A stretch of DNA of 64,000 bases, from positions 907,687-971,686 of the forward strand of contig NZ_CP035425.1 in the NCBI RefSeq assembly GCF_006740685.1, in the 5' to 3' direction. The position numbers were made by a program, and so were the translations under genes. The notes under the pieces are model-generated. The model did no database searches, was not told where the DNA came from, and was given only the letters and a program-made list of their open reading frames with translations. Shown here piece after piece: positions 43,284 to 48,610 of this stretch. This DNA comes from Candidatus Nitrosopumilus sp. SW. Its GTDB lineage: Archaea > Thermoproteota > Nitrososphaeria > Nitrososphaerales > Nitrosopumilaceae. The number at the start of each line of letters is the position of its first letter. The stretch's first letter is position 1.

Positions 43284-43445
43284 ATGTCAGTTGAAGTAAC
43301 ATGTGGAAAATGTGGTGAAAAGATCACAAACATGAAGATGTTAAAATCACTAAAAGATGTAATGAATCCTTATAGTGGAAAATGTCCGTCATGTGGACAG
43401 AAACTCTCTACATCCGAGTTTTCATTAGATGTTCAAGAAAAATGA
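43284..43445 (+). CDS. Small zinc-ribbon protein (53 aa)
   Basis: An ATG at 43284 and TGA at 43443 give 53 codons. Two Cys pairs (CGKC near residue 7-10 and CPSC near 34-37) are separated by a basic helical stretch, which is the layout of a zinc ribbon. It lies in the spacer between the DUF35 gene and the large NrdD-like gene, same strand, and may bind nucleic acid; no family name can be given. A T7 run at 43462-43468 follows the stop. Confidence 0.7.
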   Translation: MSVEVTCGKCGEKITNMKMLKSLKDVMNPYSGKCPSCGQKLSTSEFSLDVQEK

Positions 43446-43582
43446 TCTCTAATTCTTGATCTTTTTTTACAATTTTTAAAAATTAGATCCAAAATCTTTC
43501 TATACATTTAGAAAAATGATCAAAACCATTGAAGATTCATACTGTCATAAGTCTTAATTAGTGCTTTTTTTTAGAAAAAGAC

Positions 43583-45754
43583 ATGAAAATGAGTGATGAG
43601 GAATTAGAATTAGATCTAGAAGGTGATCTAGATGCAGATGTTGATGATGATCTAGATGTAGACTTGGATGATGATGATTCAGATTCACCAAAACGCGGTG
43701 GAATTTTACAATCTACGTCAAAACGTGTCAGAATGATCTTCTCTGTAATGGCAAGTCCTAACAGAATTGATATTTTGAGAATTCTAAACTCAAAAGGTCC
43801 TCTAACTTACTCTGAATTAAAATCCCTAGCTGGATTCAAATCAAAAAAAGAGAGTGGAAAATTTGCATACCACTTGAGAAAGTTACTTAGACAATCACTT
43901 GTTGCATTAAACAAATCTGAAAGACGTTACACAATTACAAATCTCGGAAAATTAGTTTTAAGCTTAGCAAGACAAATTGAAGAAAGATCAATTATTGAAA
44001 GTGGAAAGATGTATGTTAGAACATCACACGAATCAATTGAGGAATTTAATTCTCATAAAATTATTCAATCTCTGGTACGTGAGGGCAGCCTCCCACTTGA
44101 ATTAGCACAAAAGATTACTGAAGAAGTTGAAAATAGAATTTACAAGTATCAAACTACCTATCTTACAGGCTCACTTATACGAGAAATGGTAAATTCTGTG
44201 CTACTTGAGCACGGTCATGAGGAATACCGTAACAAGCTTGCACGCCTAGGCTTGCCTGTCTATGATGTCCAAGAAATGATTACTAACTTAGATAATGTTG
44301 GCAATGGTGCTGAAGGCCTCTTGTTTAAAACAGGTCAAAGAGTTTTTGCTGAACACCTTCTTACAAATATCTTACCAAAAGATGTAGCAGATTCTCATCT
44401 CTCTGGTGATCTACACATTGCAAATCCTGGAATCTGGTCAATGATACCTGATACAATATTTGTTAATGTTAAAGAGTTAATCGAAGATGGAATTGATCTT
44501 GGTGGAAAGTATCTTGATGTTTCAAGAATCCCTGCATCAAAAAACCTAGATGACATTACAAGTGCATTGTCTGTTGTAATTTCTCTTCTTTCAAAAGAAG
44601 CTTCACAAGAAATTGTACTTGATGGATTAGTTTCACTGTTCTCAAAACATTCAAAATCACTTCCAGAACTGGAACAAAAACTAACTGCAGCATTTGCAAC
44701 TGCATCTACAACTTCTAAATACAATAAATCAAGTACTAACGTTTCAATTAGATTGCAGTTAGGTTCTGATACAAAAATAATTAATTCAATTATTACTGCA
44801 TACAAAAATTATACAATGCTTACCCCAATTCCAAAAATTGGTTTAATCATAGATAATGAAAAAGGAAAGATCACAGATGTTTCAGCAGCTGCATCAGAAA
44901 TAATTTCCCTTGGTGGAAAAGTAATGTTTGCTAAAGGACAAACATCAAGTTATGGTGTTACCAATGGATTAGCTAAGAATTCTGGACCATTGTCCATTAT
45001 GCTCCAATCAGTATCAATCAATCTTCCAAGATTGGCATTTGAATCAAACAAAGATGAAACTTACTTTAGAGCAAGATTAGCATTGTTGATGAAACCAGCT
45101 TTGTCTTCAATGGCACTAAGAAAGAAAGACATTTCAGACTTGACTAGACGTGGCTTGAATCCAATTTTGGCTAAAAATACACAATATATGCAAAAAAGCA
45201 ATGTTTCTCTTGTAGTTAATTTAGTAGGCCTCAAAGAGGCTGTCTTTAACATCCTTGGATTCCAGGATAATAAGGAAGGACGTGAAATCCTTCATAAGGT
45301 AATTGAGACTGCCGTTGACGTTGGAGCCAAAAAAGGCAAAGAATTAGGCGATCCTGTGGCTATTTGCATGACTGAGACTGACAGTTCCACTCGCTTTGCA
45401 ACCCTTGATGGTGAAAAATATGGTAAGAATTCATCCCTAAACTCAATGGAAGGTGATTCCTACTCTGAAGGAATTACTATTGATGCCTCTGAAGTTACTG
45501 ATTATACTGCTAAGAGTGAACCAATCTCTGAATGTAACAAACTTGCTAAGTTGCTAAACGGAGGCTTGTTTGTAACGCTAAAAATTGGTAAAGATGCAAA
45601 GCCTGCAGAAATCAAAAAGGCAATCGAGAAAACATCTGAACTTACAACCTCCTTCAAACCAGTTCAAGAGATTGCAATCTGTGGTGAATGTGGCTTTAAA
45701 GATGAACCATTTGAAGACAAATGTCCAAAATGCAAGTCTCCATATGTTGTCTGA
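43583..45754 (+). CDS. HTH/ATP-cone/NrdD-like protein lacking the glycyl-radical segment
   Basis: The 723-residue protein has four parts: an acidic Asp-rich N-terminus (about 5-35), an ArsR-like helix-turn-helix with wing (about 45-130, RIDILRILNSKGPLTYSELKSLAG...ERRYTITNLGKLVL), an ATP-cone (about 141-235, VRTSHESIEEFNSHKIIQSLV...LARLGLPVYDVQEMI), and a long NrdD-like barrel region (SHLSGDLHIANPGIWSMIP; SECNKLAKLLNGGLFVTLKIG). It ends with the zinc ribbon of class III reductases (CGECG...CPKCKSPYVV) exactly before the glycyl-radical loop. So catalysis is unlikely. It lies upstream of nrdJ and probably senses nucleotides and regulates transcription; this is inference. Confidence 0.82.
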   Translation: MKMSDEELELDLEGDLDADVDDDLDVDLDDDDSDSPKRGGILQSTSKRVRMIFSVMASPNRIDILRILNSKGPLTYSELKSLAGFKSKKESGKFAYHLRKLLRQSLVALNKSERRYTITNLGKLVLSLARQIEERSIIESGKMYVRTSHESIEEFNSHKIIQSLVREGSLPLELAQKITEEVENRIYKYQTTYLTGSLIREMVNSVLLEHGHEEYRNKLARLGLPVYDVQEMITNLDNVGNGAEGLLFKTGQRVFAEHLLTNILPKDVADSHLSGDLHIANPGIWSMIPDTIFVNVKELIEDGIDLGGKYLDVSRIPASKNLDDITSALSVVISLLSKEASQEIVLDGLVSLFSKHSKSLPELEQKLTAAFATASTTSKYNKSSTNVSIRLQLGSDTKIINSIITAYKNYTMLTPIPKIGLIIDNEKGKITDVSAAASEIISLGGKVMFAKGQTSSYGVTNGLAKNSGPLSIMLQSVSINLPRLAFESNKDETYFRARLALLMKPALSSMALRKKDISDLTRRGLNPILAKNTQYMQKSNVSLVVNLVGLKEAVFNILGFQDNKEGREILHKVIETAVDVGAKKGKELGDPVAICMTETDSSTRFATLDGEKYGKNSSLNSMEGDSYSEGITIDASEVTDYTAKSEPISECNKLAKLLNGGLFVTLKIGKDAKPAEIKKAIEKTSELTTSFKPVQEIAICGECGFKDEPFEDKCPKCKSPYVV

Positions 45755-45916
45755 AATTCATAATTGAAAAACTAGTTACGATCATTTTTGAAAATTTTTT
45801 GATCTGTTTCAGACTTCTGCGATCATCGTCCATTGTGAAAGTTATTCCGTTATGAAGTTCATAGTAGCGTTGTCAATTTTATTGAACCGAACTTTTAGAC
45901 AAAAACTGACAAATCA

Positions 45917-45922
45917 TTTATA
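45917..45922 (+). promoter_or_regulatory. TATA box of nrdJ
   Basis: TTTATA lies 37-42 nt before the ATG at 45959 and only 7 nt before the upstream in-frame TTG (45929), so transcription would begin around 45946 and the TTG could not be translated. A TGATCAT (45930-45936) lies between TATA box and predicted start; TGATCA also occurs upstream of the HTH gene (43517-43522). Confidence 0.5.
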
Positions 45923-45958
45923 CCCGCATTGATCATAACCCTCTACGGGGATATTATA

Positions 45959-48610
45959 ATGGATAATTCACAAATAGAAAATACTATCAATGAGATCCGT
46001 AAGCGCAGTGGCGCAGTAGCGGCTTTCAATAAAGATAAAATTTCAAATGCCATTTTCAGGGCATTGGCTGCCACCTCTAAAGCCGACCGTGGCCTAGCCG
46101 ATCAGTTAGCAGATAATGTTGTTAACAAATTAGTAGAACAAGGATTCACCAGTACTAGAACACCTACCGTTGAAGATATTCAGGATATTGTAGAATCCAC
46201 TTTGATTGACAGTGGTAATAGCGATATTGCAAAAGCCTACATTGTCTATCGTCATGAGAGAAGAAAACTAAGAGACGAAAAAATGAAGGTCCTAAACCTA
46301 AAGGCCCTTGATCCAGTTTCCAAAAAGTTTGACTTGAATTGTCTTAGAGTCTTAGCATCAAGATATCTTTTCAGAAATGGAAAAAATGAGATTATTGAAT
46401 CTCCAACTCAAATGTTTGAGAGAGTTGCAATCCTAGTCGGAATTGGTGACCTCATGTATGATGCACAAGTCTTTGACAAATCTGGAAATACAAAACAAGA
46501 TGTAGAAGAAGCAAAATCATATCTTGAAAAACTAGATGCCTTTGATTACAAGTTCAAAGTTGGAGACTATTTCTTCAACAAATGGCATTTTAGATCACTT
46601 ATCAGCCACTACGTAACCCTTGCAAACAAGGGTCAGATGAAAGTAAGTTTCAAAGAACTTTTGACACTAATTGCGGCAAAGAAACTAGATGTCTATGCAG
46701 ATAAAATCACAGAATACTTTGATCTGATGGTTGCACAAGACTTTTTGCCAAACTCCCCAACAATGATGAACGCAGGTGGAAGACTAGGTCAGCTTTCTGC
46801 ATGCTTTGTACTTGGAATGAATGATGGCATGGAGGAAATCATGAAATCAACTTCTGATGCCGCATTAATCTTCAAGTCTGGTGGTGGAGTTGGAATCAAC
46901 TACTCTGATCTTCGTGAAGAAGGTGATATTGTAGCATCAACATCAGGTGTTGCATCAGGCCCCGTATCATTCATGAACATCATTAACACTGTAACTGAAG
47001 TTGTTAAACAAGGAGGAAAGAGACGTGGTGCAAACATGGGTATAATTGAAGCATGGCATCCAGATGTTGAAAAATTCATTACAAATAAAACAGAACCTGG
47101 TGTTTTAGAAAACTTTAACGTCAGTGTTGGTGTCTGGGAAGACTTTTGGCATGCACTTGTAAACACTAGTGATGGTAACTATGTTTTACGTAGTCCTCGT
47201 GACAAAAAACCAGTTAAAGAAATTAATGCACATCAGTTAATTGACTTGATTGCACTATCTGCATGGAAAAGTGCAGAACCTGGTTTGATCTTCTTTGATC
47301 AAATTAACAAATACAATGTATTTGCAAAAGCAAGACAAGCACCATTACGTGCAACAAATCCATGTGGTGAACAAAGTCTTTACCCATACGAATCTTGCAA
47401 TCTAGGTTCTATCAATTTAGTAAATCTCGTAAAGAGACAAGCAGATGGAAACTATGAATTTGATTGGCAAAGATATGAAGAAACAATCAGAAAGACTACT
47501 AGATTCCTTGATAACATCATTGATGTTAATACCTATCCAGTTCCAGAAATCAATGTAGCATCAAAAGAATCCCGAAGAATTGGATTGGGTGTAATGGGAG
47601 TAGCAGATCTCTTGTACAAACTAAGAATCCCATACAACTCTAAAGAGGGATATGAACTACAATCCAAACTATCTGAAGCCCTAACATACTATTCCATGGA
47701 AGAAAGTGTAGCCCTTGCAAAGTCTCGTGGTGAATTCCCACTATGTTCCAAGACCGAGTATCCTGAAGGAAAGATTCCAGTTGCAGGCTATTATGAAAAG
47801 CCAAAGGAATCTCACTCCTATGAATGGGATGCATTAATTGAGAAAATAAAACAATATGGAATAAGAAACGTCCTAACCACAACAGTGGCCCCCACAGGTA
47901 CCCTGTCAATGATTGCAGACTGTTCAAACGGAATGGAACCTGCATTTGCATTGGTATTTGAAAAGAGAGTTACTGTAGGAAGATTCTTCTACACAAACAA
48001 AATTGTTGAACAAGTCCTAAAAGAAAATAATCTATACACAGATGAAATTCTTGCAAAGATTGCAGACAACTACGGATCATTGAAAGGAATTGAAGAAATT
48101 CCTCAATGGATGCAAGATGTCTTTGTAACTGCAATGGACATTCACTGGTCTGATCACTTGATGGCTCAGGGAGTGTGGCAAGACTGGATTGGAAATGCAA
48201 TTGCAAAAACAATCAACATGCCATATGATGTAACTGCAGAAGATGTAAAATCTGCATATCTGCTAGCACATGAAATTGGTCTCAAAGGTATCACAGTTTA
48301 CCGTGATGGCTCTAGACACAAACAAGTCCTTCACATGACTAGTGATAATGCACAAAAAACATTTGATGTTACACCAAGTGAACATGTAACAAGTTATGTT
48401 ACACAAAACATCACAAACCCATACATCAAATCACAAGTTAATGCTGCACTTGCATTGAAAGTACATGACGAAGAAATCAAAGCTGAACCAATCCAACAAG
48501 AAGAAGTTTCAGAAGATCGTCTATGTCCAACATGTAAGAACAACCTTGTATTTGTAGAAGGTTGCAGCATCTGCATTGAATGTGGATTTAGTGGTTGTAC
48601 TTCTGGATAA
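45959..48610 (+). CDS. nrdJ: Adenosylcobalamin-dependent ribonucleotide reductase (class II)
   Basis: The 883-residue enzyme reduces ribonucleotides to deoxyribonucleotides with a B12-generated thiyl radical. An N-terminal ATP-cone (about residues 10-105) gives allosteric control. Catalytic motifs are SACFVLGMNDGMEEI, the loop GGGVGINYSDLREEGD, and NPCGEQSLYPYESCNLGSINL with the radical Cys, Glu and partner. The C-terminus has a Cys-rich zinc/redox tail (CPTCKNNLVFVEGCSICIECGFSGC). ATG 45959 is preferred over the TTG at 45929 because of the TATA position. Its neighbour upstream is a probable regulator built from another reductase. Confidence 0.96.
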   Translation: MDNSQIENTINEIRKRSGAVAAFNKDKISNAIFRALAATSKADRGLADQLADNVVNKLVEQGFTSTRTPTVEDIQDIVESTLIDSGNSDIAKAYIVYRHERRKLRDEKMKVLNLKALDPVSKKFDLNCLRVLASRYLFRNGKNEIIESPTQMFERVAILVGIGDLMYDAQVFDKSGNTKQDVEEAKSYLEKLDAFDYKFKVGDYFFNKWHFRSLISHYVTLANKGQMKVSFKELLTLIAAKKLDVYADKITEYFDLMVAQDFLPNSPTMMNAGGRLGQLSACFVLGMNDGMEEIMKSTSDAALIFKSGGGVGINYSDLREEGDIVASTSGVASGPVSFMNIINTVTEVVKQGGKRRGANMGIIEAWHPDVEKFITNKTEPGVLENFNVSVGVWEDFWHALVNTSDGNYVLRSPRDKKPVKEINAHQLIDLIALSAWKSAEPGLIFFDQINKYNVFAKARQAPLRATNPCGEQSLYPYESCNLGSINLVNLVKRQADGNYEFDWQRYEETIRKTTRFLDNIIDVNTYPVPEINVASKESRRIGLGVMGVADLLYKLRIPYNSKEGYELQSKLSEALTYYSMEESVALAKSRGEFPLCSKTEYPEGKIPVAGYYEKPKESHSYEWDALIEKIKQYGIRNVLTTTVAPTGTLSMIADCSNGMEPAFALVFEKRVTVGRFFYTNKIVEQVLKENNLYTDEILAKIADNYGSLKGIEEIPQWMQDVFVTAMDIHWSDHLMAQGVWQDWIGNAIAKTINMPYDVTAEDVKSAYLLAHEIGLKGITVYRDGSRHKQVLHMTSDNAQKTFDVTPSEHVTSYVTQNITNPYIKSQVNAALALKVHDEEIKAEPIQQEEVSEDRLCPTCKNNLVFVEGCSICIECGFSGCTSG

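Follow-up and report, generated by a model that had tools for sequence, protein, structure and literature searches.

The window analysed here is the whole stretch of 64,000 nucleotides taken from Candidatus Nitrosopumilus sp. SW, a member of the order Nitrososphaerales. Towards its right-hand part it carries a gene for a 723-residue protein, hereafter REG, and, next downstream on the same strand, nrdJ, which encodes a class II ribonucleotide reductase (RNR). Direct reading places the ATG of nrdJ at 45959, leaving a spacer of 204 nt between the two genes (Table 1). The first-pass annotation, made from the letters alone, had placed REG directly upstream of an nrdJ with an ATP-cone of its own, and this arrangement was confirmed. 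Between thiolase/OB-fold genes and REG lies an open reading frame of 53 residues (43284-43445, + strand) with two CxxC pairs (CGKCGEK...CPSCGQK). In many relatives the C-terminal part of its coding sequence (LSTSEFSLDVQ) can be made out in front of REG, and the ORF matches zinc ribbons at a sub-threshold level only.

Table 1. Features of the REG-nrdJ locus, in coordinates of the window.
Feature	Position	Strand	Basis
TGATCA in GATC cluster upstream of REG	43517..43522		TGATC at this position in 59/101 relatives, TGATCA in 36/101
Conserved core-promoter block of REG, GTCATAAGTCTTAATTAG (Nitrosopumilaceae)	43544..43561	+	GTCA(T/C)AA(G/A)TCTTA in 86/101 relatives
REG open reading frame, 723 aa (winged helix-turn-helix, ATP-cone, catalytically dead NrdD barrel, zinc ribbon)	43583..45754	+	ORF, Pfam, NrdD profile, AlphaFold2/Foldseek
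REG N-terminal tail, residues 1-40, acidic, probably disordered	43583..43702	+	pLDDT <50; variable among relatives (alignment)
REG winged helix-turn-helix, residues 43-126, near-invariant segment GFKSKKESGKFAYHLRKL	43709..43960	+	HTH_20 and DUF7347, conservation
REG ATP-cone, residues 143-215, near-invariant R-T-S instead of KR(D/N)G	44009..44227	+	PF03477, alignments
REG catalytic barrel of NrdD type, residues ~230-690, without the substrate-flap Asn	44270..45652	+	Profile-profile comparison, fold match, residue table
Position of the NrdD catalytic Cys-Cys pair, Gly458-Val459 in REG	44954..44959	+	Joint alignment
REG NrdD-type zinc ribbon, Cys700/703/714/717; protein ends 6 residues on, without glycyl-radical loop	45680..45733	+	Sequence
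REG-nrdJ spacer with several conserved blocks	45755..45958	+	Alignment of relatives
CGATCAT just past the stop codon of REG	45779..45785		Kept in 76/105 relatives
CGATCATCG, containing (C/T)GATCAT	45820..45828		Kept in 70/105 relatives
TATGAAGTTCATA palindrome	45851..45863		TATGAA.TTCATA in 49/105 relatives
Degenerate operator-like copy TTGTCAATTTTATTGAAC, ~30 bp before the TATA box of nrdJ	45870..45887		Matrix score
TGATCA between TATA-like box and nrdJ start	45930..45935		Exact copy in 14/105, close relatives only
nrdJ, class II RNR with its own ATP-cone, only PF02867 reductase in the genome	45959..48610	+	Pfam/NCBIfam, genome search

In Pfam, residues 52-126 of REG match HTH_20 (32.6 bits, cut-off 27) and DUF7347 (40.7 bits, cut-off 27.6), residues 143-215 match the ATP-cone PF03477 (35.2 bits, cut-off 25.8), and residues 472-719 match the NRDD domain above its curated cut-off, with the match reaching as far as profile position 529 out of 562. 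The NCBIfam equivalog model for NrdD, the class III RNR, gives 80 bits, far under its cut-off of 326. When a profile of 42 REG relatives was compared with one of 10 genuine archaeal NrdD proteins, residues 139-723 aligned with a probability of 100 and an E-value of 2e-92, and the best matches of the REG profile among PDB sequences were all class III reductases. The AlphaFold2 model of REG (pLDDT 83.5, pTM 0.74) led Foldseek to the same enzymes, which make up its top 36 PDB matches, with E-values down to 1.5e-20. These profile, sequence and fold matches imply that the whole body of REG, and not its C-terminus alone, is NrdD. Pfam, the profiles and the AlphaFold2/Foldseek results thus agree on the combination that the first-pass annotation had read in these 723 residues, namely a winged helix, an ATP-cone, an NrdD-like barrel and the NrdD zinc ribbon, and the structure prediction and profile comparison with NrdD that it had proposed return a class III fold and full-body homology.

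REG proteins range from 660 to 780 aa. Their most conserved part is the winged helix, with a nearly invariant recognition-helix region, and the barrel drifts in the alignments. The canonical signature of the ATP-cone is KR(D/N)G, the K-R pair of which usually contacts phosphates. This pair is missing from REG, a caveat on nucleotide sensing. At three loci (L167, L173 and L174) the ATP-cone of the adjacent genuine NrdD also has V-R-T-S, so the R-T-S cone of REG may be a variant rather than a dead cone; nucleotide binding by it is inferred. One Nitrosopumilaceae REG (L128, genome G086) of 692 aa retains winged helix, ATP-cone and barrel and ends just before the zinc ribbon.

The equipment for catalysis is lost. 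A joint alignment of the 42 REG and 10 genuine NrdD sequences shows the finger-loop Cys pair in 10/10 NrdD and 0/42 REG, 41 of which have Gly at the first position. The REG of the window has cysteines only at residues 595 and 651 and in the zinc ribbon, in agreement with the earlier remark that none stands at the catalytic position of NrdD. The radical Gly of the RVxGY loop is likewise present in 10/10 NrdD and 0/42 REG. The first Asn of the substrate flap, the one that was checked, occurs in all ten NrdD sequences and does not figure in the residues tabulated for REG; the NxN motif of this flap has been described (PMC11226230). The zinc ribbon is kept in 41/42 REG, L128 being the one that lost it. 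Within the order, the C-terminus of REG follows directly after the ribbon, and the first-pass observation that the chain stops right after CPKCKSPYVV, before the glycyl-radical loop, can be read directly from the sequence. Outside the order, the radical Gly is missing in all 18 full-length REG sequences examined, and many retain a degenerate radical loop; at L178, for instance, the degenerate tail FSRVSAKHLPAPFSNPAQISALSNRVSY compares with the intact WSRVTGYYQAVSGWNKGKVRELQDRHRY in the neighbouring genuine NrdD. In an unrooted tree, REG and genuine NrdD form two groups, except for one very long branch (X_L201).

Its full NrdD fold and zinc ribbon would suit the idea that REG is still a reductase, which obtains its radical or Cys in trans. 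This idea is nearly refuted. Besides the loss of Cys pair, radical Gly and flap Asn described above, neither the Gly_radical domain (PF01228, a model that mainly detects PFL-type loops) nor the activase NrdG (TIGR02491) was found over cut-off in any of 41 genomes, and the hosts are aerobic. No second NrdD was found in the window's genome (complete, 1.5 Mb), which has a single NrdD-like gene. Supply of a radical loop or activase in trans was rejected on these searches together with the single NrdD-like and single PF02867 gene, and two of the findings that the first-pass annotation had named as fatal to its proposal, a glycyl-radical loop joined in trans and an adjacent NrdG, did not turn up in them. 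Some ORFs of ~240-250 aa match NrdG weakly, well below the cut-off, and were interpreted as other radical-SAM proteins. The bacterial regulator NrdR (TIGR00244) was not found over cut-off in any of 61 genomes of the order, and TIGR00244 was not among the NCBIfam matches of REG.

REG is present in 141/151 genomes of the order, in 112/116 good ones and in 46/48 genera. At every locus that extends far enough, bar one, its next gene downstream on the same strand is nrdJ, and this includes 20/20 family representatives (up to 14 families). The same holds at all but one of 40 further loci, contig-end loci aside, and at the sole exception (L221) a nuclease-like ORF occupies the slot after REG. The neighbouring nrdJ genes are of several kinds: with an ATP-cone, without an ATP-cone but with TSCPD, of the PF08471 type, and intein-split. 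An intein with LAGLIDADG domains lies inside the REG-adjacent nrdJ at L121:2365-5811 (-).

The search for REG homologues was limited to the phylum of the window's host, and 20 loci outside the order were examined for neighbours. There, REG stands upstream of a genuine nrdD (L167, L173, L174, L178 and L179), directly upstream of nrdJ (L176) or convergent with nrdJ (L182). At 10/20 of these loci, pyrB or pyrI directly abuts REG in convergent orientation, and 3/20 show no RNR or pyr neighbour. A recurring order is REG, a reductase of any class, pyrB on the opposite strand and pyrI. The neighbourhood survey proposed in the first-pass annotation thus gives a linkage to nrdJ that is near-universal in the order and flanking by nrdD or pyrB elsewhere in the phylum. 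On the simplest reading, REG took its place beside a reductase before the reductase genes now found there arrived. Part of this linkage may be inherited gene order, given that pyrB stands beside REG in other classes as well, and the pyrB/pyrI adjacency hints at a wider role in nucleotide control. At L169, L171, L164, L172 and other loci from non-Nitrososphaeria, convergent pyrB and then pyrI (aspartate carbamoyltransferase) lie downstream of REG. A glutaredoxin-like gene (L178:4236-4598, -) is found between REG and the genuine nrdD at L178.

Since conservation within REG peaks in the winged helix, the DNA target of this domain should be visible. A matrix derived from the upstream regions of f9-type nrdJ genes only has the form TTGTCAA-n5/6-ATTTaAC, which is the inverted repeat GTNAA-N6-TTNAC. 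This palindrome occurs upstream of REG in 18/25 sequences of family f7 and 12/31 of the f9 set, with a spacing of 6 and essentially no other, and upstream of nrdJ in 17/27 of the f9 set. The 498 kb examined from 40 loci contain 20 copies. REG or nrdJ promoters account for 14 of these, the remaining DNA has 0.013 per kb, and the palindrome is ~30-fold commoner at these promoters than in the surrounding DNA. The counts are not independent, because the sequences are related, but families differ in where the palindrome lies, in its spacer and in the letters of its arms. Each of four f9 genomes has a single copy of the extended form TGTNAAN6TTNACA, always in the gap between REG and nrdJ. A survey for second sites with a 19-mer, allowing one mismatch, returned 11 matches in 8 genomes, of which 6 are at REG or nrdJ; the remaining 5 in these genomes are scattered and have nothing in common. 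In f9 REG promoters the palindrome overlaps the TATA-like TTAAATAC, which suits autorepression, an inference. The palindrome was not found in the nrdJ promoters of f7 (Nitrososphaeraceae-like) or around REG outside the order. These absences speak against the regulatory reading, as does a winged helix that hardly changes between families with different candidate sites.

The window's own family has the palindrome in degenerate form only. With the matrix trained on other families, TTGTCAATTTTATTGAAC scores 13.2 against a mean of 4.6 (sd 3.0) for shuffled sequences, and relatives also score at this place of the nrdJ spacer. The promoter block GTCATAAGTCTTAATTAG of REG is strongly conserved, with a spacing unlike that of the palindrome in the sister families. 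A de novo search in the window's family alone revealed no clear motif common to both promoters except GATC; its output consisted of core-promoter, 5'-leader and GATC-palindrome blocks. The first-pass annotation had proposed TGATCA as a site at both promoters (43517 and 45930), with (C/T)GATCAT recurring at 45779, 45820 and 45930, and these coordinates are correct. In the relatives, GATC reaches 17x the expected frequency between positions -150 and -60 of REG; for the spacer the factor is 3.6x. The gap upstream of REG and the REG-nrdJ spacer are among the three GATC-densest intergenic gaps of the window, the other intergenic DNA of which holds 13 GATC against 17.6 expected. This enrichment at both gaps, and not in the other intergenic DNA, makes the TGATCA hint more than chance here. 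Clusters of three GATC are common genome-wide (27 versus 41 for a CTAG control in this genome, 33-103 versus 10-34 in other genomes), and the cluster at the locus is therefore enriched, not unique. The proposed site thus holds locally, but it is not shared by the sister families, which carry GTNAA-N6-TTNAC. As a general operator TGATCA was rejected, there being no enrichment in other families; at best it is a feature of the window's own family. To judge from its occurrence in the alignment, the copy at 45930 is recent. Upstream of REG at two loci (L022 and L080), four TGATCA lie exactly 49 bp apart (-213, -164, -115 and -66), a tandem repeat carrying the site. Nitrosopumilaceae loci show a second, weaker GATC peak (2.8x expected) ~3 kb upstream of REG.

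REG might act at the protein level, as a non-catalytic partner that modulates NrdJ or NrdD, with the winged helix serving protein contacts or the control of its own gene only. Such a role would be in line with the near-constant adjacency to the gene of the enzyme, the homology of the REG body to an RNR subunit, and the restriction of the f7 palindrome to the REG promoter. It remains improbable, however: REG stands beside several NrdJ types and beside NrdD without an obvious common surface, the palindrome does precede nrdJ in much of the f9 set, and few parts of REG are as well conserved as the DNA-binding helix. Somewhat harder still to sustain is a broader regulator of nucleotide metabolism that originally targeted pyrimidine synthesis (pyrB/pyrI) and has only a secondary connection to RNR. 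The convergent pyrB/pyrI genes that abut REG at half of the loci outside the order, and the recurrence of the REG-(RNR)-pyrB-pyrI order, speak for it. Yet pyrB was not seen near REG in 7/20 representatives of the order (some loci being short), all of which have nrdJ; pyrB is convergent to REG; and the palindrome is located at RNR and REG promoters. It is very unlikely that the targets of REG are unrelated genes and that inertia of gene order alone keeps it next to nrdJ. Part of the order (pyrBI) is indeed common across classes, but differing types of reductase fill the slot beside REG, and the extended palindrome is genome-unique and at the REG-nrdJ locus in four genomes.

The presence of REG beside whichever class of reductase, or beside pyrimidine genes, across the phylum makes it the probable regulator, so far missing in archaea, of the supply of DNA building blocks. 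REG is likely to be an NrdD-derived, NrdR-like transcription regulator of reductase genes, with DNA binding, ligand, dimerisation and the sign of regulation inferred. The first-pass proposal of an enzyme turned into an RNR regulator is supported in that all checks run that could have refuted it were favourable (no NrdG, Gly_radical, second NrdD or NrdR, and linkage to nrdJ). A duplicated or displaced NrdD would have shed the catalytic Cys, the substrate flap and the radical loop; what remained, the ATP-cone, the barrel and the zinc ribbon, would form a body that binds nucleotides, with an ArsR-like winged helix at the N-terminus. As a dimer, REG would bind palindromic sites at its own promoter and at that of the adjacent reductase, GTNAA-N6-TTNAC in the sister families and, in the window's family, a degenerate GTCAA site, the GATC cluster or both. 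The most likely outcome would be repression of REG and the reductase genes when (d)ATP signals plentiful dNTPs, as with NrdR in bacteria. There are no binding or expression data, and DNA binding, nucleotide sensing, dimerisation and repression are all inferred. The chances are even that the full history holds, in which an RNR paralogue became the transcription factor of RNR, used the ATP-cone and remnants of the substrate and specificity sites as a dNTP sensor, was retained through exchanges between class III and several kinds of class II enzyme, and provides an ancient NrdR-independent control in the whole phylum.

NrdR is the RNR repressor of bacteria (TIGR00244; PMC9110341, PMC12176259), through which transcriptional control of the sole route to deoxyribonucleotides is known there, and it is described as rare in archaea (PMC9110341). 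Like REG, it joins an ATP-cone to a DNA-binding module, its gene stands beside RNR genes (nrdRJ in Streptomyces), and it has palindromic boxes at RNR promoters and at its own. Unlike REG, it is small and binds DNA through an N-terminal zinc ribbon, whereas REG has a winged helix, a whole dead NrdD barrel and a C-terminal zinc ribbon of the NrdD type; the palindrome linked to REG also differs in sequence from the NrdR boxes. The analogy drawn earlier from zinc ribbon plus ATP-cone is therefore upheld for the NrdR-like role and not for the ribbon, which is NrdD's own structural ribbon and not a DNA-binding one like that of NrdR. With NrdD (PF13597, TIGR02487), REG shares the ATP-cone, barrel, zinc ribbon and overall fold, but it lacks the catalytic Cys pair, glycyl-radical loop and flap Asn and has an additional N-terminal winged helix. 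The ArsR-like and DUF7347 winged-helix regulators of archaea have a similar N-terminal DNA-binding domain, but they are small stand-alone repressors, whereas in REG this domain is fused to an RNR-derived ligand domain. The best reading is that REG works like NrdR without being NrdR, and descends from NrdD without sharing its function.

Few cells in the ocean are as abundant as ammonia-oxidising archaea. If REG is indeed a regulator, it would explain how these archaea sense and set their dNTP supply without NrdR. It would also be a clear case of a metabolic enzyme that became a regulator of its own pathway, with the degenerate radical loops as visible intermediates. No description of REG was found in the literature, as far as open-access papers are concerned. 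A viral contig (L265, IMG/VR IMGVR_UViG_3300006094_000039) has 37% identity to the ATP-cone and the start of the barrel, a weak match at the level of the ATP-cone. Other families of the phylum encode shorter proteins with winged helix and ATP-cone (L185, L186, L187, L188, L189 and L199), in frames of ~540-617 aa without the CxxC of the zinc ribbon, which are perhaps still more reduced forms of REG.
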